A DNA stretch of 64,000 nt, taken from Nematocida parisii ERTm1. Taxonomy: Eukaryota; Microsporidia. Positions 5,753 to 23,585 of the stretch are shown piece after piece (the first letter of the stretch is position 1; every line of letters starts with the position of its first letter). The notes under the pieces were generated by a model that did no database searches, was not told the origin of the DNA, and worked only from the letters and a program-made list of their open reading frames with translations. The DNA lies in contig NW_013524649.1 in NCBI RefSeq assembly GCF_000250985.1, forward strand, positions 390,065 to 454,064, given 5' to 3'. The position numbers were made by a program, and so were the translations under genes.

Positions 5753-6461
5753 TAAGTAATGATTAATACACAATACATAGTACACACTATATAATAAATA
5801 ATGATTACACTATTACTAATAATACATAGCATAATAAATACTACATAGTACACACTGTACAATATATAATACTTATTACACACAGTACATTATATAATAC
5901 ATAGTACATTATATAATACTTATTACATACTATACATTATATAATACATAGTGCATTATATAACACACTATAACAATACTTATTACATACTATACATTAT
6001 ATACTATTACATATCACACACAGTACAATAAATAATACACTATAACAATACTAATAGCACACAGCATAATAAATAATAATACATAGTACACTACTTATTA
6101 CACACTGTACATTATATACTACTTATTATATACTACTTATTACACATAGTACATTATATACTATTACATAGTACACACTGCACATTATATAATACATAGT
6201 ACAACTTATTACACATAGTACTACTTATTACACACTACTAATTATATAATACATAGTACACACTGTACATTATATACTATTACACTTATTACACATAGTA
6301 CATTATATAATACTTAGTACAACTTATTACACATAGTACTACTTATTACACACTACTCATTATATACTACTTATTACACATAGTACATTATATACTATTA
6401 CATATCACACACTGTACAATAAGTTTTATACTAGAGTGGTCTCTCTAAAAAATTCTAAAAA
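5753..6461. repeat. Family-B low-complexity array
   Basis: About 700 bases consist of irregular copies of acttattacacatagtacattatatact and variants, each near 30-40 bases. No reading frame of gene-like composition is present. The array ends in a T-rich leader before BDP1. Confidence 0.9.
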
Positions 6462-6923: not shown

Positions 6924-7415
6924 GTGTAAAACAAAAATTATTAAAAATAACGGTTATTAAAAATTTTATACATAATACATAGTGATAATAGTGTAATAAG
7001 TAATACATAATAAGTAATAAATAGTACACAATAAGTAATAAGTAGTACATAATAAGTAATAAGTAGTACACAATAAGTAATAAGTAATAAGTAGTACACA
7101 TATTACTCACTTATTACACATAGTATATATAGTATTACTTATTCTATTACTTATTACACATAGTACTACTTATTACACATAGTACATATATTACTACTTA
7201 TTCTATTACTTATTACACACAGCCCATATATTACTACTTACTATACATAGTATATATATTACTGCTTATTCTATTAATTATTACACATAGTACATATATT
7301 ACTACTTATTACACACTACTCATTATATACTACTTATTACACATTGTATATTTAATATTCCTATTTTGTATAATATAAATTATAAGTATAAATATAATAT
7401 TAATTATTACACAAT
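6924..7415. repeat. Family-B array with short tandem units
   Basis: About 6980-7100 is a tandem run of agtaataagtagtacacaat-type units. From 7100 to 7340 irregular family-B copies follow (ttattacacatagtacatatattacta). No gene is visible. Confidence 0.9.
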
Positions 7416-8999
7416 ATGTTAGAAGTAGTAGACATACAGAATATTTTACAAAAACAAATTACACATGATGTAATAAGTAATGTACAGTATATAAATAATA
7501 TTAATATTATATATTATTATATATTAATGAATATTAATATTAATGAAATATTACCAAATAAGGATAATACGTTATTTAGTAAAATTATTGGATATATTTA
7601 CAGTAAAGATATAAAGAATACATATTTAGATATAAATAAGACTAACTTAGATAATACTACAGTAACAAATGAGATACTTAATAAGATATCTAAATATATA
7701 CATAAAGAACTTAATGTATACAGTACTAATAACACAATAAGTGACAAGTTATACAATAGTACAGAATATAATACACATAGTACAGTAAGTAATGATAATA
7801 GCACAGAATATAATATGTATAGTACAACAAGTACTATTAATAATACAATGTGTGATAATAGTACAGGATATAATACACATAGTACAGTAAGTAATGATAT
7901 ATTAAGTAATAGTAAGTATTTAGTCTTATATGATACTGTAATAGACACTTATACTTACAATATCTTACACATCCTATTAAGTTATACTTGCTCATTGCTT
8001 AAAAACAACCAATATTATCAGAGTGTAGACGTACTTCCATTCGATGCATTATATAATGATATATTACCAGTAAGTTTACACAACTATATAATCAATGAGT
8101 TAAATATTCTGTATACATTATTAAGGCATGATACAGCAGAAGAGGACTTACACGATATATTTCAGAACATAAAGAGCTTATACTATTACTACAACAGGAT
8201 AATGAATATACAAAGTATATATAATATAAAAAAAAGCAGTTATATAATTAATTATATAAACAATAACTGTAAAAACATTCCCAATAAGGAAATAGATAAA
8301 TTTTTAAATAACAAAAATTTACTATACGAAAATTTAAACAAATTTTATAACGAATTCCAGTATGACACAATAATTGCACTAATTCAGACCAGGACAGGCT
8401 CAGGCACGCCAATATTTGACAGAATCCATAAAGATGACTTTTTATGTAATGTATTGCATAAGGTTAATGCAAAACACACCATAACTTATTACACATACTA
8501 CATTATGTATTCGATATGTATATCAGTATTAATTGGTATAGGTGTAATAATTCTATTAAATAATACACTATGTGTAAAATATTCTAGTAATTATAACACA
8601 TTGTATATAAATAAGTATATGAGTATATTACTTATTGCTAGTACCATAATAAGTTCTGTACAATTACAAACCCATCTGCTTAACTATAAAAAGAGTATTT
8701 TATCATTATTAGAAAATGAATATGATAAATTATTTATGAGTGTATGTGTAATAAGTATTATATCTATATCAATTTTTTATATTAATCCGTTAATTATTAC
8801 AAATAATTTATTTAAATTAATTATTACTATATTTAGTATATTTAACGGTATTTTTTGTTTTTTTAACAATTATATCAAAAAAGGAAATATATTTAATTAT
8901 AAAAATATTATTTATACAGTAATTTACATCATAAATATATTATTTATAACATATTTATTATATAATTATAATATAATCTACACATTTAACGGATTATAG
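7416..8999 (+). CDS. Lineage-specific five-span membrane protein with family-B repeats
   Basis: The 527-residue protein begins at the first ATG after an array, and its N-terminus (KQITHDVISNVQY) is itself read from a family-B element. Residues about 110-165 are Ser/Thr/Asn repeats (STEYNTHSTVSND, STEYNMYSTTST, STGYNTHSTVSND), again encoded by repeat DNA. A helical soluble middle follows (residues about 190-345). The C-terminal 180 residues hold about five hydrophobic segments. The middle shares a loose pattern (K-I-P-x-K-E...TRxGSGT) with the gene at 14489, and the C-terminus shares topology with the gene at 16472. A family relationship is therefore possible but unproven. I do not recognise a known domain. 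Confidence 0.75.
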   Translation: MLEVVDIQNILQKQITHDVISNVQYINNINIIYYYILMNININEILPNKDNTLFSKIIGYIYSKDIKNTYLDINKTNLDNTTVTNEILNKISKYIHKELNVYSTNNTISDKLYNSTEYNTHSTVSNDNSTEYNMYSTTSTINNTMCDNSTGYNTHSTVSNDILSNSKYLVLYDTVIDTYTYNILHILLSYTCSLLKNNQYYQSVDVLPFDALYNDILPVSLHNYIINELNILYTLLRHDTAEEDLHDIFQNIKSLYYYYNRIMNIQSIYNIKKSSYIINYINNNCKNIPNKEIDKFLNNKNLLYENLNKFYNEFQYDTIIALIQTRTGSGTPIFDRIHKDDFLCNVLHKVNAKHTITYYTYYIMYSICISVLIGIGVIILLNNTLCVKYSSNYNTLYINKYMSILLIASTIISSVQLQTHLLNYKKSILSLLENEYDKLFMSVCVISIISISIFYINPLIITNNLFKLIITIFSIFNGIFCFFNNYIKKGNIFNYKNIIYTVIYIINILFITYLLYNYNIIYTFNGL

Positions 9000-9228
9000 T
9001 ATTATAACGTATTATAACGTAGTATAATGGATATAATAAAGTTTTATTTTTATAATCTATATATTTAACGGGTTTATCAGTACTATATAGTATATGTATA
9101 AGTATATATAATGGGTTATAATCTATATATTTAACTGTATTATATGGTATACGCAGTGTATGTGCTATATATGGGTTATATGGTATATAATCTATATATT
9201 TAACCGTTTTTTATTTTATTTTTATTTT

Positions 9229-9308
9229 ATAATCTATATATTTAACTGCTTTATATCTTATAATCTATATATTTAACTGCTTTATATCTTATAATCTATA
9301 TATTTACT
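9229..9308. repeat. 31-bp tandem repeat at a gene 3' end
   Basis: The unit ataatctatatatttaactg plus an 11-base tail recurs at 9229, 9260 and 9291 (period 31). Related single copies lie near 9050, 9118 and 9188 in the same 296-base intergenic stretch. The last copy runs into the stop codon of the minus-strand gene ending at 9296. Confidence 0.9.
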
Positions 9309-10468
9309 GTATGTACTGTGTTTACTGACATATTTAATAGTAATAATACTATTATCTTATATATAATCAGTGTAGCTGTAATTGCTGTTATAATTACTAA
9401 TATAATATTAATTATACTAATTATACTATCACAATATGATTCAATCCCATTTCTCATTATATCCTCATACAACTGTAATAATTTATTCTTTAGTGCTTTA
9501 TTAATCATATAAATAACTGAAAATAAAATTATAACAGTAAATGCACCTGATATTAAATTAATTAAAACCGTTAAAATTTTTAAATTATCAAAAATTGAAT
9601 AAATCCAAAAATTTTCAGATAATTTTATCAGAATATTAATTATAAAAATAACTGAAAAATATCCCAATATAGAAATAAAATACGTACTATTCCTGTAATA
9701 AACAACCCCCTTTGTGGATGTAAATGTAAACCTGTCGTATATAACTGCCATTAATGGGATAACCCGTAATAATAAATTATAAATAAATCCAGAAGCAATG
9801 GGCAGTGTTATACTGTCAGTGACTAACTTAACACCAATTATACTAAAATGTATATATGTCAAAACAGAAATACCTGAAAATATCAAAGATATCCATATAA
9901 GGATAGATCTAAATTTTTCAAAATAACCGTTTAAATACTTCTCTGTATCATAAACCATTTGCTTTACTGTTTCTATACCGATTGATTCTGGCTTGACGCG
10001 TACATATAACCAATTAAGTCCCATATACCCGAAGGATATATTATCTACATTATCTACATTATTAAGGTTTGACTCTAACAGTTTATCAGTTAAATCAAAA
10101 AATGCTTCAGTTAGTGCTAACCCTATTTGTTTGAAATAACCGTTTTCTATAAAAATTTTATGTGCTAATGATAATGAAAGTGCTATTATAACAGTAAACA
10201 CGTTTAAGTATGCTAATATTCCGTATTTCATTAGTGATATACTGAATAGTTTAAATGGGAATATTGCACTCTTACTTATATTTATATCCAAATTTAATAT
10301 TATACAGATTATTAAAAATATCATAATTATAACGGTATTTTTGTTTTTTAATAAAAATTGTTTCTTTTCATTTTGTATTTCTTGTTTTTTTATAGTTTTT
10401 TTCTCTTTTGCTGTATTAATCAGTGCTTTTGTTTTTCTTGATTCTCTTCCTCCTAATTTATATTTCAT
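9296..10468 (-). CDS. Multi-pass membrane protein, unknown
   Basis: The 390-residue protein has a basic N-terminus (MKYKLGGRESRKTKALINTAKEKKTIKKQE). It is followed by about 7-8 hydrophobic segments separated by a central soluble loop (residues about 120-185, with a DNVDNVDN direct repeat). Ile, Leu, Asn and Tyr dominate, reflecting the AT-rich local composition. I recognise no family. The position between two repeat arrays and beside the AIG1-like genes suggests an accessory membrane gene. The convergent gene ends at 8999. Confidence 0.75.
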   Translation of the reverse strand: MKYKLGGRESRKTKALINTAKEKKTIKKQEIQNEKKQFLLKNKNTVIIMIFLIICIILNLDINISKSAIFPFKLFSISLMKYGILAYLNVFTVIIALSLSLAHKIFIENGYFKQIGLALTEAFFDLTDKLLESNLNNVDNVDNISFGYMGLNWLYVRVKPESIGIETVKQMVYDTEKYLNGYFEKFRSILIWISLIFSGISVLTYIHFSIIGVKLVTDSITLPIASGFIYNLLLRVIPLMAVIYDRFTFTSTKGVVYYRNSTYFISILGYFSVIFIINILIKLSENFWIYSIFDNLKILTVLINLISGAFTVIILFSVIYMINKALKNKLLQLYEDIMRNGIESYCDSIISIINIILVIITAITATLIIYKIIVLLLLNMSVNTVHTVNI

Positions 10469-10914
10469 AATAAAAATTTATGTTTGATATTTATATTTTT
10501 ATAAGTCCAATACGTAATAAGAATAAATAACCAATTATATAACCCGACATAACCCGATATAATACAAGCATATAATACAAGCATATAATCAGATACACCA
10601 ATCAGATATACCAGTACACATATAAACATATATATACTTATACACATATACTTATACTTATACCATATACCAGTACATATACTATATCCTATATACTTAT
10701 ACCAGTGCATATATGCACCTATTCTATATCTTATACTTATACCATATACCAATCAGATACATCAGCACATATACTTATATCTTATGTTCTTTTATTATAT
10801 TCGGGTTATATATCCCTATCCTATATACATTACCAGTGCTTGTCCTATATACTATATACATACACATATTATATCCTATATACATATACTATTACATACA
10901 CATATCCTGTATTT
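10469..10914. repeat. Low-complexity tata/cata region with one family-A doublet
   Basis: Irregular repeats of atacttataccatatacca fill this stretch. It is open in several frames only because of its composition. A family-A doublet (ataacccgacataacccgat) lies at about 10539-10559 and a single unit near 10800. Tyr/Ile-rich open frames here are not believable genes. Confidence 0.8.
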
Positions 10915-11607
10915 CTATTCATATACCCTTATACTCTTATTTATATACTGTCTTACTCTTATTTTTACTATGTATATTATACTGTTTATCATGTATATCA
11001 TTATATATGATATGATTGGTACTATTATTATATATTTATTATACTTATTTAGTATATTATATCTGTAATACCCATTTATATACTTATATATACATGATAT
11101 AATAATAGTATATGCTGTATAATATAGTATATAAGTATAACCAGGCGTAATAAGTGTATTATTAAGTATATAAGATATAAATAATAATAAGCATGGGAAT
11201 GCATGCATACACAAATTAGAGAATAAAGTGATTTTAGTGTCACCGTATAAGGAACTTTTAGGGAATACTAAATTAGGGTTATACACGAATATAGGCCAGA
11301 ATATCAAGAATATTAATATTTCAGATGATAATACAGTTGATGTAATATGTGCAGATATAACCCGAATATTGAATTTGTCAGTGTACTGCGTGATGAGTGT
11401 CATAAGGAATGATATAAAACTGAATAACAGTGTAGAATTAGTTATAAAAAAGAACTTCTTTATGGAGATGTTCATTTTTACATTAAAATAATTAGTGTGT
11501 GATATATCTAATAATCCGTATATACTGATACACATCCCTATAATACAAATTATATTATTCAACCAGAATATTCTTGTACTGTTTCCTATATCATGCAATC
11601 CATTCAT
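10915..11607 (-). CDS. AIG1/FAR-17a-like membrane hydrolase, diverged paralogue
   Basis: The 230-residue six-span protein is recognisably related to its upstream neighbour at 12291-13049. Both have YGxLDI near residue 33, a FxxLxHxG/FFITNS helix, FWxxxxxxxxLVxxxS, and LFxNLCMHxFPxxLLxxxY. AIG1 and ADTRP, the animal members, are membrane threonine hydrolases that cleave fatty-acid esters of hydroxy fatty acids. The conserved Thr (FFITNS) and His (NLCMHAF) positions appear kept. The copy is more AT-rich and has drifted toward Ile/Asn/Tyr. It is transcribed in the same direction as the other copy, 680 bases downstream. Confidence 0.75.
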   Translation of the reverse strand: MNGLHDIGNSTRIFWLNNIICIIGMCISIYGLLDISHTNYFNVKMNISIKKFFFITNSTLLFSFISFLMTLITQYTDKFNIRVISAHITSTVLSSEILIFLIFWPIFVYNPNLVFPKSSLYGDTKITLFSNLCMHAFPCLLLFISYILNNTLITPGYTYILYYTAYTIIISCIYKYINGYYRYNILNKYNKYIIIVPIISYIMIYMINSIIYIVKIRVRQYINKSIRVYE

Positions 11608-12290
11608 TAATAAAATTCATAAAAAATTAATTAATTATATAACGGATTTAAAGTATTTTGGTATAATTGGTTTAGTATCCTATTTGTTATTATAATATGA
11701 TTATGATTGGTATGATTATGCTGTGAATTATAGGTTTATTACAATTAGTATAAGATACACACATGGCATACTTATGACATATGGTATATGCTAAGTATAT
11801 GCTAAGTGTATGGTATACAGTGGTATATGCTAAGTGTATGGTACACAGTGGTATATGCTAAGTATATGGTATATATGGTATATATGGTGTACAGTGGTAT
11901 ATGCTAAGTATATGGTATATATGGTATATATGGTGTACAGTGGTATATGCTAAGTATATGGTGTATATGCTAAGTGTATGGTATATAGTGGTATATGCTA
12001 AGTATATGGTATATATGCTAAGTATATGCTAAGTATATGCTAAGTATATGCTAAGTGTATGGTGTACAGTGGTATATGCTAAGTACACAGTGATGTATAT
12101 TAATTGGTGTATATTATATACTCTTCTTGTACTGTGATATACATGTACTATTCTAATTATGGTATGCTTATATAGTATATGTATACTATAGGCATATGTG
12201 ACATATGTGATATAGACATACTTATGCCTATTCGGATTATATCATGATATACTTCTGTTACTCCTATTATACTCATGCCTTCTTCTTCTT
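11608..12290. repeat. Tandem array of ggtatatgctaagtatat units
   Basis: From about 11775 to 12085 a unit close to gtatatgctaagtatatggt (18-22 bases) repeats many times. Higher-order copies of roughly 60 bases include tatggtgtacagtgg. The flanks are AT-rich without a gene. The array separates the two AIG1-like paralogues. Confidence 0.9.
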
Positions 12291-13049
12291 TTACTTTACT
12301 TTTTCTTGTTCTGTGGTTCTTTTTTCCTTTTTGTTATTTGTGCTTATGTGTGCTCTTGTCCAGATGTATTTATTTATTACTGTAAGCATATAATACACTG
12401 TACATATGGATAAATAACACACACAGAAGAATAATACACGGTATGTGCCAGTGAGGGTTTTAATCACACCGTACGGCCAGTACCCATTCAATTCATAACA
12501 AACATGCATAAGAATGATATAACCAATGAAGAACAAGAAAAGTAACCCATAACTTGCCAGTGTGTTCAACAACTCTATGTAAAAGAATTCCACCAATAAG
12601 AATACGGTTGGAAACCCGTGCATGCACAGATTAAAGAAGAGTGAGATACCGTCATCACCATCATAATAAGAAGGGTTTACTACGAGTGACTTATCTATAT
12701 GCCACATAACCCAGAATGAAACAGGGATGAATAACTCCACAGTAATAGTCAGTGCGAATAAGTTCGGGTATATTTTATACATAAAATTATCAACGCGTTC
12801 CTTTTGTGTGTTAGATGTACACCTGCCCCTGTACATTATACACATCCCCAGTGTAATAGCTGTAAGGATTAGTCCAATATGCGTCAAGTGGTAGAACCTG
12901 TTTAAAAATGAAAATAGATCAGGGGATCTTAATCTGTACGGTTTACCTATGTCTAAATTACCGTATAAGGAAGTTATAATTCCTAAGGAGGCAACTGCAT
13001 TCTGTGCCACTTTGTTTTTTACTGCCACTGGGACTCCGAGTATTTTCAT
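12291..13049 (-). CDS. AIG1/FAR-17a-like membrane hydrolase
   Basis: The 252-residue protein has about six membrane spans, close to the usual length of the AIG1/ADTRP family. Landmarks are FLNRFYHLTHIGLILTAIT (the conserved Thr helix), PVSFWVMWHIDKSLVVNP, and LFFNLCMHGFPTVFLLVEFF (the conserved His). Animal AIG1 uses a Thr/His pair for hydrolysis of hydroxy-fatty-acid esters in the membrane; the substrate here is unknown. The tail is Lys/Glu-rich. It is divergently arranged with 14-3-3, whose ATG is only 60 bases away, so the two share a very short promoter. Family assignment is fairly sure; function is inferred. Confidence 0.82.
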   Translation of the reverse strand: MKILGVPVAVKNKVAQNAVASLGIITSLYGNLDIGKPYRLRSPDLFSFLNRFYHLTHIGLILTAITLGMCIMYRGRCTSNTQKERVDNFMYKIYPNLFALTITVELFIPVSFWVMWHIDKSLVVNPSYYDGDDGISLFFNLCMHGFPTVFLLVEFFYIELLNTLASYGLLFLFFIGYIILMHVCYELNGYWPYGVIKTLTGTYRVLFFCVCYLSICTVYYMLTVINKYIWTRAHISTNNKKEKRTTEQEKVK

Positions 13050-13109
13050 TTCCGGCTATTATTTTTTAAACATTTAAATTTCGAATGGAAATTAATTTTT
13101 ACTTATTGA

Positions 13110-13865
13110 ATGGAGACATATGAAGAGTGCGTATACAAAGCAAAGCTAAGTGAAAAAGCAGAAAGGTTCAAACAAATGGTAGAATGCATGAAAACAGCAG
13201 TAAAACAAGCCAGTTCCATAGGAAAGAGTATAGGGATAGAGGAGAGAAATATGCTCTCTGTTGCGTATAAGAACCAGGTGGGGGTAAGAAGAACTTCCTG
13301 GAGAATACTCACAAAATCATTACAGGAGTGTAAGCTGGCAGAGCAGAATTCCAGTGGAGCAGTGAATGAAAAGCACATTCAAATAATTATGGATTACATA
13401 AAAACAGTAGAGAGTGAATTAAATGGGATATGCGATGACTTACTCTCACTACTGGACTCGTATTTAATTCAAGAGACAGCCAAGGACTCACAGGTATTCT
13501 TCTTAAAGATGAAAGGAGACTATCTCAGATATAAAGCAGAAATAGCGAATAATGAATATTTAGCAGAAGTATCACAGCAGGCACACGATGCATACCAGAA
13601 AGCAATGGAAATAGCAAATGCAAACCTGCCCCCCACAAACCCCACCAGGCTTGGTTTATATTTGAACTACTCCGTGTTCTGCTTTGAGATCCTGAATGAG
13701 CGGACCCGTGCGATAGAAATGGGCAAGAAAGCCTTTGATGAAGCAATTTCTGAGTTAGACTCTTTGACAGAAGAAAGCTACAAGGACTCTACGCTTATTA
13801 TGCAATTATTGCGGGATAATCTTTCCTTGTGGACGACTGAGTATGCGGAGGAGGTTGCTTATTAA
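13110..13865 (+). CDS. 14-3-3 phosphopeptide-binding protein
   Basis: The 251-residue product covers the whole 14-3-3 fold. It starts with YEECVYKAKLSEKAERFKQM, continues with EERNMLSVAYKNQVGVRRTSWRIL, includes FFLKMKGDYLRYKAEI, and ends with TLIMQLLRDNLSLWTTE. Lys, Arg, Arg and Tyr residues of the phosphoserine pocket are at their usual motif positions (RNMLSVAYKN; KGDYLRY). The dimeric protein binds phosphorylated clients in signalling and cell-cycle control. It is one of the best-conserved proteins in the window. Length equals the family norm except for a short acidic tail (TEYAEEVAY). Confidence 0.98.
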   Translation: METYEECVYKAKLSEKAERFKQMVECMKTAVKQASSIGKSIGIEERNMLSVAYKNQVGVRRTSWRILTKSLQECKLAEQNSSGAVNEKHIQIIMDYIKTVESELNGICDDLLSLLDSYLIQETAKDSQVFFLKMKGDYLRYKAEIANNEYLAEVSQQAHDAYQKAMEIANANLPPTNPTRLGLYLNYSVFCFEILNERTRAIEMGKKAFDEAISELDSLTEESYKDSTLIMQLLRDNLSLWTTEYAEEVAY

Positions 13866-14488
13866 GTGTTGATTGTGCCTTTATTATGTGATTTGGACTA
13901 TTTAAGGTGCCTGTGCATTTGAATTTCGGGTTATTAGCTTGTTTGACATTTTCCAATAAATACAATATTATAAATTTAGGGTTATATCGGGTTATACGGG
14001 ATTGTTTCTGCATAATCATATGTTATGTATAATATAACTGTAATAAATAAGTATTTTATATTTAGGGTTATTCGGGTTATATCATTATTTATTTCTTATG
14101 GTATTTTATTACAGTGCACTATAAATATTTATTCATAAAATATTTTATATTTATACTTTTATCTTTTATATATAAATTATGCCCTGTTATCAAAATGATA
14201 CTTATTCAATAAAATAAGGACTGCATATAATATATATAGCACATTGTGTATAAAATAATACTATACACTGTACTACTAATTATAACACATTGTGTATAAA
14301 ATAATACTATAATGCACTAATTATAACACATTGTGTATAATATTTAAATTTAACTATTTTATTTTTTTATTTATAACACACTATGTATAAAGTAGTACTA
14401 TACTGCACTAATTATAACACATTGTGTATAATATTAAAATTTTTTAATTTATCCGTTATTTATATATAAAATTTTACTTTTTTTTATT
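13866..14488. other. Intergenic region with family-A and family-B copies
   Basis: Family-A units lie at about 13927, 13979-14000 and 14059-14083. From 14215 to 14440 there are direct repeats of actaattataacacattgtgtataaaataatacta (family-B like), at least four copies. No gene is visible. Confidence 0.8.
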
Positions 14489-16387
14489 ATGAACAGTAAC
14501 AACAAAGAATACTTAATACAAGAACTAAAAGATACACTTGCTAATAGAAGTATAACACCCAATAAGTGTGATACAGTAACAAAAGTACTCCCAATAATAC
14601 TAGAAATATTCACAAGAGAAAGAATAACGGACAGATCCCATAAGTCACTAGAACTTATTACATATAACACACTATGTTATATGCTAGACAAGTATATACT
14701 AGAAATAAGCAACTGCACTGATGATAATATAATAACAGCAGTAGAAGCAGCCGTTAATAAAACAGAAGAGGTAATTAATATAATTAAAAATACAGAAAAG
14801 GAAATACCCGAAAAGGAAAAAGTGAAATTTTTTAACTTAATAAACAATAATCATTTATTCCTGTTCCAGGGAGTATTATTAAGGCAAATTATACAGTCAG
14901 ATATAAGGAAAGCACTAAAACCCGAATTAACCCGAAAATTAAAACCCGTGGATAAATCCACTGCAATAAAAAAACTATTCAGCAAGACGCGCTCAGGACA
15001 GACAAAACTACAAAGACTTATAGAACTATTAACAGAAAATAATGGCAAGTTTACAGAATATATTGGTAATGTAGAAAAAGTATTAAAACATAATACACAA
15101 TGTGCAATAAGTAATGAAGATATAGAAATATTAAATTTATTTTTATATGTAGATATGAGTGCATTATATAATAGTATATGTGTAATAAGAAATGCATACA
15201 TATTTAAAAATTTTAATGGCAAATCAAATCAAAAATTTTTATCATTTTTTGATAATTTATTTTTCTTTTGGAGCAACCCGATGACAGAAGGCAAAGAAGA
15301 AGAAATAACCCGATATAACCCGAATTTCTTATATGATATTATTAATAATACCACAGGAACCATTTACATTAAAGAAATAAGCAAGCAGATAGCAAATGAC
15401 TGTCTAAGCACAGGCGTATCACAAGATAAATTTAATAATACAATTAATACGTATAAGAATAGTATTATAACACTATTAAATACACAATCACCAGTAAGTA
15501 ATAAACTTAGTACACAATCAGTAGTAAGTAATGCACAAGAACCATTAAATACAGAACAATCAGTAGTAAGTAATGCACAAGAACCATTAAATACAGAACA
15601 ATCACCAGGAAGTAATAAACTTAGTACACAATCAGTAGTAAGTACTAGTAAGGGAGCACTTAATAGAATTAAAAGGGGCGTATCATTCATAACCCGAGCC
15701 CAAGATAAAATTGAGGATAAGATAATAGGTCTTACAGTAACAGCAGTCAAAACAGCAACACAAGCAAAAGCACTACTAAAAGAAGCAAAAAAGGCAAAAG
15801 CACAGCCAGTCCAGCCAGTAGTCCAGTCAGTAGAAGCAGTACAAGTACAGCCAGTAGTACAAGCAGTGGTAGAGGAAGAAGAAATAGAAGTGGCAGAGGA
15901 AGCAATTGATCCAGTCGCAGAAGCAGCAGATACAGTTGCAGAAGCACTTACACCAAATATATTAATAGAAGCACAAGCAGAAGCAGTCAAGCCAGTACAA
16001 GTACAGCCAGTCAAGCCAGTACAAGCAGAGGCAGTCCAGGCAGTACAAGCAGAGGCAGTCCAGCCAGTCCAAGCAGAGGCAGTCCAGCCAGTATATTCTG
16101 AAGCATATTCAGCTGCGTATTCAGTTGACCAGGCGTATGTATCTATTAAGAATAAGTTAAGAAATATTATACTATGTGTAATAAGTATTATAATAATAAT
16201 AATTATTTCTGTACTGTGTGTAATATATTCTGGTGGTATATCAAGATATATTACACAGTGTATTAAATATTTTAGTAATATTATATATAAAGTAGGTAAT
16301 AAGATTAATAACACAGTGGGTATTAAATCATCACTAGAAAAAATAATAGAAGATATCGGTGGTGGAGTGAGTAATTTATTTAATTAA
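14489..16387 (+). CDS. Lineage-specific tail-anchored repeat protein
   Basis: The 632-residue protein has a helical N-terminal half, then a composite repeat region and one strong hydrophobic segment near the C-terminus (LCVISIIIIIIISVLCVIY, about residues 565-585). The middle holds a 14-residue tandem repeat (VVSNAQEPLNTEQS) and an Ala/Val/Gln/Pro region of VQPVQAEA-type repeats (residues about 430-545). A family-A doublet in the frame (15304-15327) encodes TRYNPN. Family-B elements encode TQCAISN and LCVISI, the latter inside the membrane segment. The N-terminal half loosely resembles the middle of the protein at 7416. No known domain is recognised. The next gene follows 85 bases downstream in the same direction. 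Confidence 0.75.
   Translation: MNSNNKEYLIQELKDTLANRSITPNKCDTVTKVLPIILEIFTRERITDRSHKSLELITYNTLCYMLDKYILEISNCTDDNIITAVEAAVNKTEEVINIIKNTEKEIPEKEKVKFFNLINNNHLFLFQGVLLRQIIQSDIRKALKPELTRKLKPVDKSTAIKKLFSKTRSGQTKLQRLIELLTENNGKFTEYIGNVEKVLKHNTQCAISNEDIEILNLFLYVDMSALYNSICVIRNAYIFKNFNGKSNQKFLSFFDNLFFFWSNPMTEGKEEEITRYNPNFLYDIINNTTGTIYIKEISKQIANDCLSTGVSQDKFNNTINTYKNSIITLLNTQSPVSNKLSTQSVVSNAQEPLNTEQSVVSNAQEPLNTEQSPGSNKLSTQSVVSTSKGALNRIKRGVSFITRAQDKIEDKIIGLTVTAVKTATQAKALLKEAKKAKAQPVQPVVQSVEAVQVQPVVQAVVEEEEIEVAEEAIDPVAEAADTVAEALTPNILIEAQAEAVKPVQVQPVKPVQAEAVQAVQAEAVQPVQAEAVQPVYSEAYSAAYSVDQAYVSIKNKLRNIILCVISIIIIIIISVLCVIYSGGISRYITQCIKYFSNIIYKVGNKINNTVGIKSSLEKIIEDIGGGVSNLFN
15483..15650 (+). repeat. 42-bp in-frame repeats in a lineage-specific gene
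   Basis: Two adjacent 42-bp units encode VVSNAQEPLNTEQS. They are flanked on both sides by copies of agtaataaacttagtacacaatca, giving an A-B-B-A layout. A second repeat block of about 18-24 bp units (caagcagaggcagtccagcc) spans about 15975-16095. Confidence 0.9.
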
Positions 16388-16471
16388 TAAAATATAACTG
16401 ATTTCCTTATATGGTAATAATATATTTATAGAAGTATAAATATTTTTAATTTTTAATAATTTTTATTTTAT

Positions 16472-17233
16472 ATGAGAGAAAAAAAGGCCACTGCGAGTGC
16501 ATTAGATACAGAAAATTCATCAGAAATCAAAGGAGAATCTCTTATTATTAAAACCACCAGCACGGGATCTGATAATAATTTGGCAGCAGGTGGTTTATTA
16601 AGTAATATTAAAGATGTGCACGTAAGTGAGAATATGGCAGAATTTATTACACATAGCACAGAAAGTTCTCTTATTTTTCATATATTGTATTCAATATTTT
16701 ACAGTACAGTACTATTAATTATTACACAATATGGCATAAGTACTGCACACTACACCACCAGATCAATTATTACACAGTATAATTATTTACTACTCACTGT
16801 GTATTATATATTCAATATATTACTACAATTTATTACACTATATGTAATAAGTAAGGATAGTACACTAATATTTACTAAAAATTTTCCAAGTAATAAAAAT
16901 AAAATAATTAGTATTTTTATACTAATTATATCTGTAATACTCACAGGCATATTTATAGGCTTATTTAGTACAGATATATTTATTAGTATAACAATAAGTA
17001 TTTATACAGGAATTAGTCTATCATACAGTATAATTATACTAATAGACATAATATTATACACAATATGTAATAAGTACGAGTGCATGTATAATTATAAGCA
17101 TATGTGTAATAAGAAATTATCACTTATTTATTACATAAACATAATTATAAGTATAATTATAACAGTGTACACAGCATACATAATAAAAGACACATTATAT
17201 CCAAATACAGTAAGTAATAGCCAAATAGGGTAA
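16472..17233 (+). CDS. Lineage-specific multi-span membrane protein with repeat-encoded segments
   Basis: The 253-residue protein has a soluble N-terminal third (Ser/Thr/Asn-rich) and about five hydrophobic segments. Family-B DNA is read in frame four times: EFITHSTE at about 16640, LLIITQYGIS at 16725, IITQYN at 16767, and QFITLYVISK at 16829-16855. In the last one the DNA is an inverted repeat (TTATTACA...TGTAATAA). Membrane segments are thus encoded partly by the dispersed repeat. Topology resembles the C-terminal part of the protein at 7416. No known domain. It follows the gene at 14489 in the same direction. Confidence 0.7.
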   Translation: MREKKATASALDTENSSEIKGESLIIKTTSTGSDNNLAAGGLLSNIKDVHVSENMAEFITHSTESSLIFHILYSIFYSTVLLIITQYGISTAHYTTRSIITQYNYLLLTVYYIFNILLQFITLYVISKDSTLIFTKNFPSNKNKIISIFILIISVILTGIFIGLFSTDIFISITISIYTGISLSYSIIILIDIILYTICNKYECMYNYKHMCNKKLSLIYYINIIISIIITVYTAYIIKDTLYPNTVSNSQIG

Positions 17234-17527
17234 TAGATAACCAAATAGGGTAATAATAATTAAGAATCCGTTATGTCCATATATAGTAATAATTAAGAAT
17301 GACCAGATAAAGTAAATAGATAACCATATATAGTAATAATTAATTAAGAATACGTTATGTCCATATATAGTATTAATTAATTAATAGTGTGTTATATCCA
17401 TATATAGTAATAATTAATTAAGAATACGTTATGTCCATATATAGTAATAGTGTCCATATATAGTAATAATTAATAAACCGTTATTTATTATTATTATTTT
17501 ATTATTATTATTATTATTATTTTCCTT
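17234..17527. repeat. Tandem ccatatatagtaataattaattaagaata array
   Basis: At least five imperfect units of 30-45 bases (gttatgtccatatatagtaa core) run from about 17265 to 17475. Two shorter copies of aaccaaatagggtaata precede them at 17218-17255. The stretch separates two convergent genes. Confidence 0.9.
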
Positions 17528-18901
17528 TTATAAATTATTTATCATGCATAATTTATCAGGATTTAATGATTCTTTTAATTTATACCGGACAGTTTCTTTT
17601 ATTTTTTTTAAATATTTGTTATTTTCGTTATTTCCTTTTTTGGTATTCTTTCCTTTTATAGTAATCCCATACGCCTTACTTAATATATTCTTATATATCT
17701 CTATCTTAAATATAACCCCATCATTAACACAAAAATACTCCCCAGATGTAACCTCATACACTATCCCCATCTCCTTGATTATCTCCTCTAGCCGTATTAT
17801 TAGTACATCTACACCAGCCCGTATCCCCTTCATATGCTTTATATAACTATTCCTTATCTTTACTTTCTTATCGCATATAAAGTCCACTATACTGTCAACC
17901 CTGTCCGTATATATATTACCCTTATACTTATACTTTATTAATGAATATACTTTATGTATACTATTACAGTATAAACCATCCTTCTTTATAAATTGATTAT
18001 TAAACAAATGGTTTATATACGTACATATACTATTATCTAATACTTCTAAATTCGGGTTATATCGGGTTATATCAGACTGGGTTATATCCGGGTTATCATT
18101 AACCCATGGATGATTAAGTATCTGCTGTACACTTATCCTTGTATTCCTATCCGGGTTAAGCATCTGTAGTAATAATGACTTTAACTCCTCAGATACTCCG
18201 TCCGTTAGAATATTACTATTAGTTATCTTATGGTATAACAATTGCAGGTTCTTATCATCAAATGGCACTTTACCACATACCATTACGTACAGCACCACGC
18301 CTAAACTCCAAATGTCCACTTCTGGTCCTTTATATAAATTACCGGATAATAATTCAGGTGCTGCAAAATAAAGAGATCCACAGAAGGTCCCTAAAAAACC
18401 TTCATTTTCAAAAAAATTTGATAGTCCAAAATCTATTAAAATTGCATTATCATCCTTATTAATTAAAATATTTTCAATTTTTATATCTCTATGTACTATA
18501 TTATGATTATGGCAGTATTGTATTGCATCAAGTATTTGTATAAAATACTTTTTAGCCGTTATTTCTGATAATTTTTTATTTTTGACAATTTTTTTTAACA
18601 ATTGTTCACCTGAAATATAATTAAATATCAGATAGAAGCATTCTTTTGTGTAGAAGAATTCTTTTAGTTTTAGTATATGTTTATGTGATAGTATGTATGA
18701 TATGAGCACTTCTCTTAGTACTCTATTCTCTCTTGACTGTTTCTTTTCTATTCCTATGTAATTTATTCTGCTGATTATTTTAATTGCGACTGTTTCATTA
18801 TTTCTTATGTCTATACCTTTATATACGTAACTAGTTGTACCTGTCTCTATTACTTCTTTAAGTATATAATTATTCATTCTTTCGTGTTTCTTCTCATGCA
18901 T
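17528..18901 (-). CDS. MARK/Kin1-like Ser/Thr protein kinase
   Basis: I start at the ATG at 18901 (MHEKKHERMNNYILKEVIETG). The frame is open farther upstream, but that part is repeat DNA. All kinase motifs are present: ETGTTSYVYKG, VAIKII, HRDIKIEN, DFGLSNFF, APELL and DIWSLGVVLYVMVCG. The CAMK/AMPK-type sequence after HRD and the C-terminal FKIEIYKN...GITIKGK...KKIKETV region, which resembles a KA1 domain, point to the Kin1/MARK group. A linker between the two is encoded by three family-A units (18051-18097), giving NPDITQSDITRYNPN. The product is 457 residues. The substrate is unknown; MARK kinases act in polarity and the cytoskeleton. Confidence 0.88.
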   Translation of the reverse strand: MHEKKHERMNNYILKEVIETGTTSYVYKGIDIRNNETVAIKIISRINYIGIEKKQSRENRVLREVLISYILSHKHILKLKEFFYTKECFYLIFNYISGEQLLKKIVKNKKLSEITAKKYFIQILDAIQYCHNHNIVHRDIKIENILINKDDNAILIDFGLSNFFENEGFLGTFCGSLYFAAPELLSGNLYKGPEVDIWSLGVVLYVMVCGKVPFDDKNLQLLYHKITNSNILTDGVSEELKSLLLQMLNPDRNTRISVQQILNHPWVNDNPDITQSDITRYNPNLEVLDNSICTYINHLFNNQFIKKDGLYCNSIHKVYSLIKYKYKGNIYTDRVDSIVDFICDKKVKIRNSYIKHMKGIRAGVDVLIIRLEEIIKEMGIVYEVTSGEYFCVNDGVIFKIEIYKNILSKAYGITIKGKNTKKGNNENNKYLKKIKETVRYKLKESLNPDKLCMINNL

Positions 18902-19525
18902 GGATTTAGAAATTTTTATTGTATTTATTCTCTTCCCCTTATCTCCTACGGGGTATGATGATACATAGTGATAATAGTGCAATAAGTAATACATAGTGAT
19001 AATAGTGCAATAAGTAATAAATAAAATATATATAAAATAAGTATAAGACATAATAACCAATGAGTAATAAATAGTAAATACCACACAATATGCAATAAGT
19101 TATATTAAGTTATATTAAGTAGTAATAAGTAGTAGTATATGTGTAATAAGTTATATTATTTATTCTATATTGTGTAATAAGTTATAATATATGTGTAATA
19201 AGTTATATTATCTTGTGTTATTTACTGTGTATTGTGTAAGAAGTAATGTGCATTGTGTAATAAGTAGTAATAAATGTGTATTATATTGTATTATTTATTC
19301 TATATTGTGTAATAAGTTATAATATATGTGTAATAAGTTATTCTATATTATGTACATTGTGTAATAAGTTATATTATTTATTCTATATTGCGTAATAAGT
19401 TGTATTATATTATTATATTATTATTTATTATATTATTATATTATTTATTATACTATGTGTATTATCTTATATTATTTATTATGTATAGTGTACTATTTAT
19501 TATTTATTATACTATGTGTACTATA
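18902..19525. repeat. Family-B array (gtgtaataagttatat units)
   Basis: The array is made of irregular units of ttattctatattgtgtaataagttataatat. It is mostly in the orientation reading GTGTAATAAG on the plus strand, opposite to the arrays at 5.8 kb and 20.7 kb. No gene is visible. Confidence 0.9.
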
Positions 19526-20623
19526 TTACTCCGTTTTCTCCTCATTTTTTTCTTTTATATTAAGTCTCTCCTTTACTTGTCCTCCTTGCTCCTTTTCTGT
19601 TGGTGTACTGCAATCACTCCTTATAACAGCAGGATATCTCACTGGCTTATTAAGGCACTTACTCATCCTGTACTTAACTAAGTCAGGGATACTTCTACAC
19701 TCCCCTTTTGTTTTATCTAAGCATGTGCTGTGTGATGAGTGCATTGAATTACTCTTCTTACTGGGTGGTATTGTATAACGGACACTGCTCTTATTAGACT
19801 TCATCATAGAGAACAGACTAAGAACCCTTTTATACTCAACAGAAGCAGAAGAAGAAGTAGAGGGATAAGCAGGTGTATGTGTAGAGTGTGAACCAGTGGG
19901 TGTACTGCTTATATGCCCCTGGTTACTATTAGTATGTGTACCACTGCTTGTACTGCTTATACCTGTACTAGTACTGCTTATATGCCCCTGGTTACTGCTT
20001 ATACTGCTTGTACTGTCCATTATTATCGTATCCAGAATATTTGATATATTGCTTAATAAGTCTGTGCTCCCTAATGGACTTATTACACTTTGTGTATTAT
20101 ATTTATTACTTATTACACTTTGTATATTATATTTTACATTACTTATTACGCTTTGTGTATTATATTTTGCATAGATTATTTCTCTTCTTTTTTTTTCTAC
20201 CCCTGTAAAAATTCCTTTCGTTTTCTCTTCCAGCAATAACTTATTACACAATAACTCTTTAATCTTGTTGTACTTCACTAAGTACTCCCTCTCTATATAA
20301 GACAAGTACCATTCTTTAGTTAATACTATCTTATTAGACTGTAATAGAATATACTCTAACGGTAGATTGCTTATATTATGTATAAATACTTCTAATGAGG
20401 AGATCTTCTCTGGTGTGATATTACTTTGTATGCTATGTGTATTATATTCTGTATCTTCTGTTATTAAGTACCTTCTGCTCTGCCTTGTCTTTATTTTTGT
20501 CTCTAATTCTAGCATTACGTTAGAATTCATCTCCTTCTCTTGTTCCAGTAAGGAGATCTCTTTATTTAACTGTTTTAATCTTCTTTTGTTTCTTTCTCTT
20601 GTTTCTTCCTGTGTACGCTTCAT
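19526..20623 (-). CDS. Coiled-coil protein with repeat-derived insert, unknown
   Basis: The 365-residue protein opens with a charged coiled coil (MKRTQEETRERNKRRLKQLN..., residues 1-50). A helical section follows, then three copies of YNTQSVISN-type peptide (residues about 153-178) encoded by family-B DNA. After them come a Ser/Thr/Gly/His-rich stretch with SNQGHISST repeats (about 200-255) and a basic C-terminus. No membrane segment or known domain is recognised. The conserved-looking parts are the coiled coil and the last 90 residues (VEYKRVLSLFSMMKSNKSSVRYTI...). It is divergent from the array that leads to the zinc-finger gene. Confidence 0.7.
   Translation of the reverse strand: MKRTQEETRERNKRRLKQLNKEISLLEQEKEMNSNVMLELETKIKTRQSRRYLITEDTEYNTHSIQSNITPEKISSLEVFIHNISNLPLEYILLQSNKIVLTKEWYLSYIEREYLVKYNKIKELLCNKLLLEEKTKGIFTGVEKKRREIIYAKYNTQSVISNVKYNIQSVISNKYNTQSVISPLGSTDLLSNISNILDTIIMDSTSSISSNQGHISSTSTGISSTSSGTHTNSNQGHISSTPTGSHSTHTPAYPSTSSSASVEYKRVLSLFSMMKSNKSSVRYTIPPSKKSNSMHSSHSTCLDKTKGECRSIPDLVKYRMSKCLNKPVRYPAVIRSDCSTPTEKEQGGQVKERLNIKEKNEEKTE
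20089..20168 (-). repeat. Three family-B copies inside a coding region
   Basis: On the plus strand cttattacactttgtgtatt recurs three times with a spacing near 30-35 bases. Read on the minus strand in frame these give YNTQSV(I)SN each time. They look like insertions that have kept the frame. Confidence 0.9.
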
Positions 20624-21230
20624 AAAAATAAAAGTATAATATAATACACTATATATAATAAATAGTATACACTTATTACACTATACATAATAAATAGTAT
20701 ATATAGTACATAACTTATTACACAATATAACATAACTTATTACACAATATATAATAAATAGCATACAATATAATATAACTTATTACACAATGTACATTAT
20801 ATACTATATACTACTCACTTACACATTACTTACTACACATAATACATTATATACTACACAATGTATAATAAATAGTACTATCATTCATAATTTATTACAT
20901 AATATGCACTATATACTACATACTACTTATTACACAATATAACATAATATACTACTTATTACATAATATAACATAACTTACTACACAATATACATAATAT
21001 ACTACTTATTACACAATGTACATTATATAGTACTCTATCATTCATAATTTATTACACATATACTATTATATACTACACATACACCATTATTTATTACACA
21101 TATACTATTATTTATTACACATATACTATTATTTATTACACATAGTATATTATATACTTATATACTCCACAGATATATTCTCCTATTTAATCATACTTAT
21201 ATTATTACACACTGTATCATATATTTTATT
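20624..21230. repeat. Family-B array (ttattacacaatgtacattatatact units)
   Basis: About 550 bases of imperfect 30-60-base units ending near 21150 precede an AT-rich promoter-like stretch. No gene is visible. Confidence 0.9.
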
Positions 21231-21263
21231 CTCCTATGAATTTATTTAAATAAATTCAAGGAG
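21231..21263. promoter_or_regulatory. 33-bp imperfect palindrome at the SFP1-like start
   Basis: The core GAATTTATTTAAATAAATTC (21238-21257) is a perfect 20-base palindrome. It is flanked by CTCCT on the left and AGGAG on the right, extending the dyad to about 33 bases with 1-2 bases of asymmetry. It ends seven bases before the ATG at 21271. It could be a protein-binding operator or an mRNA hairpin over the start. The structure is seen; the role is inferred. Confidence 0.6.
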
Positions 21264-22041: not shown

Positions 22042-22243
22042 TTTATTATATAATATATAATATATAATAAGTAATACTTATTACTGTATGTGTTAGATAA
22101 AATATTATTTAATGCATTTTGTGCAGTAATAAGTGTTAAATAATTATTTGGTATTCTTATAAGAGTATTCAGTACATACATAATAAATAATGGACTATTT
22201 AAATATTTATTACACATTGCATAGTATATAGTACACATAGTAT

Positions 22244-22740
22244 NNNNNNNNNNNNNNNNNNNNNNNNNNNNNNNNNNNNNNNNNNNNNNNNNNNNNNNNN
22301 NNNNNNNNNNNNNNNNNNNNNNNNNNNNNNNNNNNNNNNNNNNNNNNNNNNNNNNNNNNNNNNNNNNNNNNNNNNNNNNNNNNNNNNNNNNNNNNNNNNN
22401 NNNNNNNNNNNNNNNNNNNNNNNNNNNNNNNNNNNNNNNNNNNNNNNNNNNNNNNNNNNNNNNNNNNNNNNNNNNNNNNNNNNNNNNNNNNNNNNNNNNN
22501 NNNNNNNNNNNNNNNNNNNNNNNNNNNNNNNNNNNNNNNNNNNNNNNNNNNNNNNNNNNNNNNNNNNNNNNNNNNNNNNNNNNNNNNNNNNNNNNNNNNN
22601 NNNNNNNNNNNNNNNNNNNNNNNNNNNNNNNNNNNNNNNNNNNNNNNNNNNNNNNNNNNNNNNNNNNNNNNNNNNNNNNNNNNNNNNNNNNNNNNNNNNN
22701 NNNNNNNNNNNNNNNNNNNNNNNNNNNNNNNNNNNNNNNN
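22244..22740. other. Assembly gap (497 N)
   Basis: A run of N flanked on both sides by family-B array sequence (ttattacacatag...). The gap probably reflects failure to assemble a longer array. The true length is unknown. Confidence 0.99.
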
Positions 22741-22823
22741 TACTACTTATTACACATATACTACTACTTATTACACATAGCATACTATATACTATTACTT
22801 ATTACACATAGTGTACTATCTCT

Positions 22824-23135
22824 TTATAATCCATAGAATCCTTTCTTATTTATGCCTGGTGGTGGTAATTCGTCATTGTCTGGTTCTTCTGGTTTATAAG
22901 GAATATTCTTAGTGAAGTACTCTGGTTGTACGTACATGTCCCCTTCTTCGTATATGTCTCCTGTGTGTGGTGCATCTCCTGCTGTATTTACTCTACTTAC
23001 TTTTACTTCTGCTGTGTGTGTATTACTTATGATGTATTGTCCAGTAAGTTCTTTGTTTATTATTTTATTTATTTCTTTAAGGACAGCAGATTTATTCTCT
23101 TTATAAGCAGACTCAGTCACTTTTATTATTATCAT
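22824..23135 (-). CDS. Small protein, unknown
   Basis: The ATG at 23135 gives 103 residues (MIIIKVTESAYKENKSAVLKE...). An amphipathic N-terminal half (residues 1-40) is followed by an acidic, Pro-rich tail ending PPPGINKKGFYGL. The segment THTAEVKVSRVN is partly encoded by repeat-like DNA, but the overall composition is gene-like compared with its flanks. There is no membrane segment and no recognised family. It is isolated between the assembly gap and a tandem array. Confidence 0.55.
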   Translation of the reverse strand: MIIIKVTESAYKENKSAVLKEINKIINKELTGQYIISNTHTAEVKVSRVNTAGDAPHTGDIYEEGDMYVQPEYFTKNIPYKPEEPDNDELPPPGINKKGFYGL

Positions 23136-23585
23136 AAAAAAATACACAATGTGTAATAAATAATAAAATATAATAGTAATAGAGTAATAAATAAAATATA
23201 ATGGTAATAGAGTAATAAATAGAATATAATAGTAATAGAGTAATAAATAAAATATAATGGTAATAGAGTAATAAATAATATATAATAGTAATAGAGTAAT
23301 AAATAGAATATAATGATAATAAGTAAAATATAATAGTAATAGAGTAATAAATAATATATAATAGTAATAGAGTAATAAATAGAATATAATAGGAATAGTG
23401 TAATAAGTAATATATAATGATAATATAGTAATAAGTTATGATAAACAGCATAATATAATGTATAGTGTAATAAGTTATAATAGTAATACTGTAATAAATA
23501 AAATATAATGATAATAGTGTAATAAGTATTATATAATATACATTGTGTAATAAGTTATAGTATAGAAATTTCGGGTTGTTTTATT
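23136..23585. repeat. 28-bp tandem repeat array
   Basis: A unit close to gtaatagagtaataaataaa plus atataatg (28 bases) starts near 23176 and repeats about ten times to 23440. Family-B-like copies follow to 23560. A single family-A unit sits at 23570. Confidence 0.92.

Follow-up and report, generated by a model that had tools for sequence, protein, structure and literature searches.

Short repeats read in frame within unrelated proteins are known from several systems. Rickettsia palindromic elements (RPEs), units of about 100–150 bp with defined ends, are dyad-symmetric and lie both in non-coding DNA and within the reading frames of unrelated proteins, where they mostly fall in unstructured regions. 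Their insertions in bacterial housekeeping genes, together with similar protein-coding repeats of Wolbachia and Methanocaldococcus, are outlined in PMC2996958. The PARCEL repeats are tandem, dyad-symmetric coding repeats of variable copy number that occur partly in membrane-targeted proteins of small-genome parasites. In yeast, DNA with a T-rich strand reads as hydrophobic sequence (PMC7005711). Here we consider a 64-kb stretch of the genome of the microsporidian Nematocida parisii ERTm1 (hereafter the window), in which an AT-rich repeat, family B, occurs both in intergenic arrays and, in frame, within four open reading frames (ORFs): 7416, 14489, 16472, and 19526.

Family B shares with RPEs its dyad symmetry, its presence in non-coding DNA, and its in-frame use in mostly unstructured parts of unrelated proteins, but it is a degenerate heptamer minisatellite of 21–27 nt, arrayed, eukaryotic, and found in AT-rich genes without known domains. 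The analogy to PARCEL is also not exact, because PARCEL is a single 25-residue amphipathic motif that is thought to have spread horizontally, whereas family B is read in several frames and forms large non-coding arrays; moreover, its modules have 9–14 residues and are hydrophilic in the main frame, as judged by eye against the published description. The yeast case involves whole proteins derived from non-genic DNA, as described in PMC7005711, in contrast to the short pieces seen here in longer genes that predate a species split. A repeat of this kind in Nematocida was not found described in the literature listings surveyed or in passages of PMC10393165 and PMC5423893. We argue below that copies of the minisatellite have probably entered existing genes and been retained where frame and protein tolerate them, lengthening genes rather than creating them.

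A degenerate heptamer minisatellite between and within genes

The sequence-only reading of this DNA had used the name family B without a definition; we took it to be the repeat ACTTATTACACA..TGTGTAATAAGT of the intergenic arrays. Motif statistics cover 264 kb, comprising the window and 20 further genome stretches (L018–L037; two contigs), most of which were chosen at listed B places (L034 was chosen for a match of another kind, and L018, L025, L036, and L037 have no B place among the matches listed). Because most stretches were chosen at B-rich places, shares such as the 24 of 80 ORFs given below are not genome-wide rates. ORFs were called mechanically (ATG to stop, non-overlapping by length) and are not annotated genes. 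Whole-genome searches for repeats and paralogues covered 3.98 Mb, those for repeats with the reversed motif as control.

Built on a degenerate heptamer, family B is a minisatellite of dyad symmetry that occupies the AT-rich gaps separating N. parisii genes. The motif CTTATTACAC occurs 251 times, against 3.4 expected under a third-order Markov model. In the sequence flanking the core, TA steps alternate, by our reading of the profile, at distances of 3 and 4, and self-matching of the arrays peaks at lags of 28, 7, and 21, both of which indicate the heptamer structure. The core forms one arm of an inverted repeat; TTATTACACANTGTGTAATAA is present at 27 places with at most one mismatch (reversed control 0), most copies being imperfect. 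In the genome, TTATTACACANNGT has 302 places and the 27-mer TATAATACACATAGTGTAATAAGTAAT, with up to three mismatches, has 135, the reversed control giving 0 for either; the 27-mer places lie on at least seven contigs among the matches listed. With up to five mismatches, the 27-mer gives 63 coding and 86 non-coding copies, and six shuffled consensus sequences give 0 each against 151. A second repeat, family A, has the motif ATAACCCGAA (74 occurrences versus 1.1 expected in the 264 kb) and is read in frame as ITRxNP.

One explanation of these properties would be a palindromic mobile element that, like an RPE, inserts whole. Dyad symmetry, dispersal over contigs, in-frame copies in unrelated proteins, and a presence-absence difference at one site (in ORF 14489, below) all accord with it. 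An RPE, however, is a discrete unit with fixed ends, and the flank profile of family B fades gradually with heptad spacing and shows no sharp ends. Further, the non-coding copies are arrayed, with a spacing peak at 21 nt, and the unit spans only ~21–27 nt. We therefore consider such an element very unlikely.

The sequence-only reading had held that the four ORFs carry family B in frame, and comparison with the arrays at the DNA level bears this out. We counted 12-mers with at least two G/C that are common to an ORF and the intergenic arrays of the window, using as control 300 synonymous-codon shuffles per ORF, which preserve both protein and codon use. The counts were 47 for ORF 7416 (shuffle mean 17.5), 41 for 14489 (9.2), 29 for 16472 (8.6), and 27 for 19526 (7.4), and for each of the four all 300 shuffles fell short of the observed value. 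The kinase ORF 17528 (30 versus 4.6; 0/300) was the sole one of 28 further ORFs to behave likewise; ORF 10915 shared 6 (mean 1.3; 4/300), ORF 33997 shared 5 (mean 1.6; 17/300), and the remaining 25 shared 0–2. A second test, with 12-mers drawn solely from non-coding DNA at other places in the sample (200 shuffles; ORFs of at least 140 residues), placed 38 of 145 ORFs at 0/200, including all four genes; it also catches other repeats, such as family A.

Four genes proved too narrow a scope, since family B is present in the kinase ORF and in ORFs at other loci. In L034 (contig C2), ORFs of 882 and 367 residues contain many modules (EYNTHSVISN, EYNTHSTISN, STVCNKL), and further module-bearing ORFs lie in L024, L027, and L031. 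Strict B patterns gave 59 hits in 24 of 167 ORFs of at least 100 residues, in five of the six frames, against 14.2 from synonymous shuffles, and 197 hits in the non-coding remainder of the sample. No strict pattern was found in the 84 sampled ORFs at or above 35% G+C, all ORF hits falling below that value. The codons tell the same DNA-level story in modules picked by peptide alone: ACA encodes 40 of 42 Thr, AGT 66 of 75 Ser, GTA 21 of 21 Val, and ATA 38 of 45 Ile, compared with 55, 46, 57, and 62%, respectively, of these residues outside the modules in those 17 genes.

Could AT-rich low-complexity proteins and AT-rich spacers simply have come to resemble each other through base composition and codon bias? 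The confinement of strict hits to ORFs below 35% G+C is what such convergence would produce, as is the recovery by shuffles of about half of the main-frame hits at six mismatches (30.2 of 56). Synonymous shuffling preserves composition and protein, however, and yet most exact matches vanish; ORF 9296, of equal G+C (24%), has zero array 12-mers; and the shuffled consensus sequences recover none of the copies found with the true one. Because the array 12-mer counts exceed those of all synonymous shuffles, convergence is largely refuted, and we regard it as extremely improbable.

The features discussed here are collected in Table 1. Hydrophobic ORFs of 108–122 residues lie inside arrays at 23113–23451 (− strand), L019:7626–7952 (−), and L021:3866–4234 (−) and are likely not genes; for the first, first-order Markov shuffles of the array equal its length in 65 of 200. 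Other AT-rich tandem arrays of different sequence are present at 11780–12103 (unit GTATATGCTAA) and 17324–17449 (unit 37 nt). The window also encodes a TLC-type ATP/ADP carrier, an E1-like enzyme, an Mtr4-like helicase, and a 14-3-3 protein, a gene content that, in a genome of 3.98 Mb, points to a microsporidian; the protein matches given below for ORFs 7416 and 14489 narrow this to N. parisii.

Table 1. Family B and related features, in window coordinates (TRF, Tandem Repeats Finder)
Feature	Position	Strand	Remarks
Intergenic B array	5753..6435	+	ACTTATTACACA.. orientation, upstream of ORF 6462; source of 12-mers
Intergenic B array	6925..7415	+	directly upstream of ORF 7416
ORF 7416	7416..8999	+	527 residues; 12 B-like stretches; hydrophobic stretches in C-terminal third
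B module YNTHSTVSN of ORF 7416	7767..7793	+	residues 118–126
B module YNTHSTVSN of ORF 7416	7869..7895	+	residues 152–160; YNTHSAISN in another N. parisii sequence
B stretch TITYYTY of ORF 7416	8480..8497	+	antisense frame
B stretch VCVISI of ORF 7416	8743..8759	+	in hydrophobic stretch
ORF 14489	14489..16387	+	632 residues; family-shared N-terminal part, long low-complexity linker, C-terminal hydrophobic segment
Family A copy (ATAACCCGATATAACCCGAAT) in ORF 14489	15305..15325	+	read ITRYNPN
B-derived linker tract of ORF 14489	15479..15660	+	NTQSPVSN..QSVVSN repeats; TRF unit 42 nt
B stretches NIILCVISI and SVLCVI of ORF 14489	16165..16225	+	in hydrophobic stretch 553–589
ORF 16472	16472..17233	+	253 residues, hydrophobic
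B stretch LIITQY of ORF 16472	16716..16732	+	at end of hydrophobic stretch 65–86
B stretch of ORF 16472	16815..16854	+	40 nt, read NILLQFITLYVISK; overlaps hydrophobic stretch 105–126
B array read as N-terminus of kinase ORF 17528–19051	18961..19019	−	hydrophobic, FITYCTIITMYYLLHYYHYVS
Intergenic B array	19085..19525	−	core on − strand; between ORF 19526 and kinase ORF 17528
ORF 19526	19526..20623	−	365 residues, no hydrophobic stretch
Three near-tandem B modules of ORF 19526	20078..20166	−	KYNTQSVISN, KYNIQSVISN, KYNTQSVIS
Intergenic B array	20624..21240	+	between divergent ORFs 19526 and 21271
Intergenic B array	22042..22820	+	~500 bases (22244–22740) read N
Intergenic B-like array	23150..23570	−	overlaps open frame 23113–23451 (−)

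Reading frame, linkers, and membrane pieces

Of the three sense frames of the 27-mer, one gives YNTHSVISN and two contain stops; in antisense, all three are open (ITYYTMCII, YLLHYVYY, and LLITLCVL). A copy with up to six mismatches is present in 24 of 80 ORFs of at least 140 residues and below 36% G+C. At this threshold, the YNTHSVISN frame accounts for 56 copies in 18 ORFs, with 30.2 expected from synonymous shuffles (five per ORF), and the antisense frames for 21 copies, with 3.0 expected from the same number of shuffles; the two stop-bearing sense frames have one copy each. Over 145 ORFs, with palindromic double counts kept, local hydropathy averages −0.81 in the YNTHSVISN frame, whereas the antisense frames average 0.05, 0.42, and 1.19, in agreement with the earlier claim that one frame is Ser/Thr/Asn-rich and another hydrophobic. 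Values above 1.6 are frequent only in the most hydrophobic antisense frame (4 of 10), with one more in another frame. One repeat can thus give both linkers and membrane pieces, because orientation decides between them, and linkers are by far the commoner use.

The peptides on which the sequence-only reading drew are located as follows: YNTHSTVSN in 7416, YNTQSVISN in 19526 (residues 154–162), and LLIITQY and ITLYVIS in 16472. Its further proposal, that family B supplies membrane segments, holds for fragments in 7416, 14489, and 16472, but not for whole segments and not for 19526; the B-encoded share of residues in hydrophobic stretches is 17% in 7416, 41% in 14489, 23% in 16472, and 0% in 19526. 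Residues 559–567 of 14489 are invariant in the four sequences aligned. Overall, B-encoded residues are a minority, numbering 43–70 in proteins of 253–632.

The kinase ORF 17528 starts inside a B array (18961–19051, − strand), which gives it a hydrophobic N-terminus of ~30 residues. The true start of this gene may lie further in, at a later Met; the gene may also be an exception, in which the array has extended into its neighbor.

Age of the genes and apparent growth of a linker

Orthologues of 7416, 14489, and 16472 were sought by a word-based method that requires shared five-residue words, and for 7416 and 14489 the best ~7990 candidates were scored. At this sensitivity, the three are matched only in N. 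parisii and N. ironsii-type strains, which agrees with the view that they are limited to this lineage. ERTm5 is N. ironsii, and the mean amino acid identity between the two species is 84.7% (both as given in PMC5423893); we assign AWRm78 and AWRm79 to N. ironsii from their NEIRO tags. ORF 7416 is 99% identical to its counterpart in N. parisii NEPAR06 and 90% identical to an AWRm79 orthologue of 526 residues, in both cases over the whole length. The orthologues of 16472 have 250–251 residues (77% identity in ERTm5, 73% in AWRm78). For 14489, identity is 97% over 72% with N. parisii entries (NEPAR04, NEPAR06, and NEPAR08 are named for this ORF and for 7416), 62% in ERTm5, and 64% over 77% in AWRm78. 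Relative to the species average, then, 7416 is better conserved, and 14489 and 16472 are less so. The locus tags of the 16472 and 14489 orthologues neighbor each other, and in ERTm5 they are consecutive (NEIG_01295 and NEIG_01296).

Forms lacking the repeat parts turned up for the 14489 linker, described below, but not for 7416 and 16472, whose orthologues keep most B-encoded residues. In 7416, the YNTHSTVSN block aligns without gaps, and 65 of 71 B-encoded residues are identical in the orthologue. In 16472, 46 and 47 of 55 are identical in two orthologues; LLIIT(Q/K)Y and F(I/S)TLYVIS are kept, LIITQY being LIITKY in one, and SIITQ reads differently. The four proteins have zero Pfam matches above cut-offs, 14489 giving a single sub-threshold match (E 0.092). 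Structure models of 16472 and 14489 (mean predicted local distance difference test scores of 40.5 and 35.8) were not used.

The sequence-only reading had suggested gene birth, in which whole genes arose from AT-rich family B DNA that yields long frames rich in linkers and membrane segments. The restriction of three genes to N. parisii and close kin, at the search sensitivity above, would fit this idea, and no second match to 16472 or 19526 was found in their own genome. In addition, the C-rich array strand can carry an open frame of more than 100 codons, and thymine-rich intergenic DNA has been linked to de novo membrane proteins in yeast (PMC7005711). Nevertheless, B-encoded residues make up only a minority of each protein, and in 10 of the 12 array strands the open frames do not exceed the length reached in first-order Markov shuffles (the array just upstream of 7416, at 6925–7415, has longer frames on both strands, reached by 4 and 8 of 200 shuffles). 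Moreover, full-length orthologues (62–90% identity) exist for three of the four, and 14489 belongs to an expanded family. We thus judge birth of whole genes from the repeat unlikely, and comparison of the predicted proteins does not support it for 7416, 14489, or 16472. Nor do 7416 and 16472 look like chance openings in repeats. In a simple neutral simulation without indels, run to a protein identity of 90% for 7416 or 77% for 16472, the frame stays open in 4 of 400 runs for each; at half the path, it is kept in 34 of 400 for 7416 and 56 of 400 for 16472.

B-encoded and other residues show no detectable difference in conservation over seven pairwise comparisons (Fisher p 0.11–1.0, gaps excluded). 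This result bears on the possibility that family B, and with it family A, is a functional DNA motif, such as a binding site or structural signal, that is under selection everywhere and tolerated in frame. Bacterial uptake sequences are tolerated in genes in this way. The over-representation of CTTATTACAC and ATAACCCGAA, the dyad symmetry, and the use of five of the six frames would all suit such a role, as would an orientation bias: 143 of 216 B cores in the non-coding DNA of the window and L018–L037 read TTATTACACA on the sense strand of the ORF that follows downstream. Selection on the motif would not predict that B-encoded residues are no more conserved than the rest of their proteins, that the strict pattern is missing from every sampled ORF at or above 35% G+C, or that degenerate copies in arrays take the place of single, uniform ones. 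This explanation, too, seems to us improbable, and lengthening of existing genes remains the reading we prefer.

The clearest case is ORF 14489. It has 18 further genomic places at E ≤ 0.001, of which 16 match its N-terminal part at 23–30% identity and two its low-complexity part at 44%. Among eleven paralogue loci, three give full-length ORFs (426–461 residues) with one hydrophobic region each near the C-terminus, and two give shorter ORFs (244 and 282 residues) without any. NemLGF3 and NemLGF4 have been described as large Nematocida gene families with C-terminal membrane segments (PMC5423893). The 14489 family fits this published description and is a candidate for membership: 14489 and the three paralogues share an N-terminal region and one C-terminal hydrophobic stretch, and the family has many members. 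In contrast to these paralogues, 14489 is ~170–200 residues longer, mainly in its linker.

Within that linker, N. parisii carries the QSVVSN tract (approximately residues 331–392); neither N. ironsii-type orthologue (P0003, P0004) contains it, nor do three aligned paralogues. In another N. parisii sequence (P0002), the tract is longer by one 10-residue unit, and this sequence is without 76 residues in the repeat-rich part that neighbors the tract. The site begins IITLLNTQS in N. parisii and IITRYNPKS in the others, and the protein around the tract also differs in the N. ironsii-type orthologues. From these alignments, the linker looks like a product of repeat-driven lengthening. Near the tract, at 15973–16093, lies a different, 24-nt repeat (QAEAVQPV), and the sister orthologues differ here as well.

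In ORF 7416, some modules vary in sequence. Its STVSN positions appear among relatives as STISN, SAISN, or SIISN, and of three differences between the window and another N. parisii sequence (P0005), two turn STVSN into SAISN. The SAISN form (AGT GCA ATA AGT AAT) is present in other B copies, and conversion between copies is one possible source of the change.

Proposed entry into genes and its consequences

In the account that we hold to be probable, copies of family B, or short pieces of them, would enter genes of the same AT-rich stretches by replication slippage or by recombination and conversion between copies. They would persist where the frame stays open and the protein tolerates them, with no positive role needed. 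A copy in the YNTHSVISN sense would end up in a hydrophilic linker, and since the antisense strand offers three open and more hydrophobic frames, a copy lying that way could join a membrane segment. Inside genes, the units may then multiply in frame, the commonest spacing being 42 nt or 14 codons, and produce longer linkers.

Several observations weigh against this account. First, the direction from array to gene is not proven. Second, a clear presence-absence difference is seen in one gene only, 14489. There, gain in N. parisii and loss in N. ironsii cannot be told apart with two species, and the 10-residue difference and 76-residue gap between the N. parisii sequences could partly reflect assembly collapse. 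Third, the test with 12-mers from elsewhere is the less specific one: ORF 21271, without obvious family B, is at 0/200 and ORF 9296 at 1/200, and 6 of 65 ORFs above 36% G+C are flagged. Fourth, because shuffles already give 30.2 of the 56 main-frame copies, the peptide alone makes much of the loose match. Fifth, the loose peptide pattern of the codon test admits chance matches, and copies within one gene are not independent. When only the first module of each gene is counted, Thr is still clear (14/14, p 2e-4); Asn, Tyr, and His are marginal (p 0.04–0.05); and Ser (10/16, p 0.15), Val (1/1, p 0.57), and Ile (5/11, p 0.93) are not significant. Finally, most in-gene copies (58 of 82) run opposite to the non-coding cores, which indicates that simple extension of a neighboring array is not the usual route. 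Thus, of the suggestion that exons grow from the repeat, the part that stands is the 14489 linker, absent in sister species and variable in length, and growth by extension of the adjoining array into a gene has been set back.

Family A may enter the same picture. It has 34 coding hits against 1.6 expected, and ITRxNP is read in frame at 15305–15325, in the kinase ORF 17528 (residues 328–334), and in L022 and L024. The ITR of this peptide is ATA ACC CGA in 6 of 6 instances, CGA being 5% of Arg codons. One linker, that of 14489, contains QSVVSN repeats encoded by family B in N. parisii, whereas the sister species has ITRYNPK there, an A-like peptide that would imply A-type DNA. A more speculative proposal, to which we give a low probability, is that families A (ATAACCCGA, ITRxNP) and B (QSVxSN/YNTHSVISN) are interchangeable coding cassettes used by unrelated proteins that may be exposed to the host. 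If so, non-homologous genes would have their linkers and membrane segments continually remodeled by conversion between copies in coding and in non-coding DNA.

In general, this compact eukaryotic genome appears to draw coding sequence, in several reading frames, from its spacer repeats, and a single DNA motif can give a hydrophilic linker or a more hydrophobic piece according to its orientation. For annotation, a YNTHSVISN or ITRxNP that recurs in unrelated proteins may be a footprint of DNA rather than a shared domain. More broadly, the observations raise a testable question: how much of lineage-limited protein evolution in microsporidia comes from repeat DNA, and how much from point substitution.

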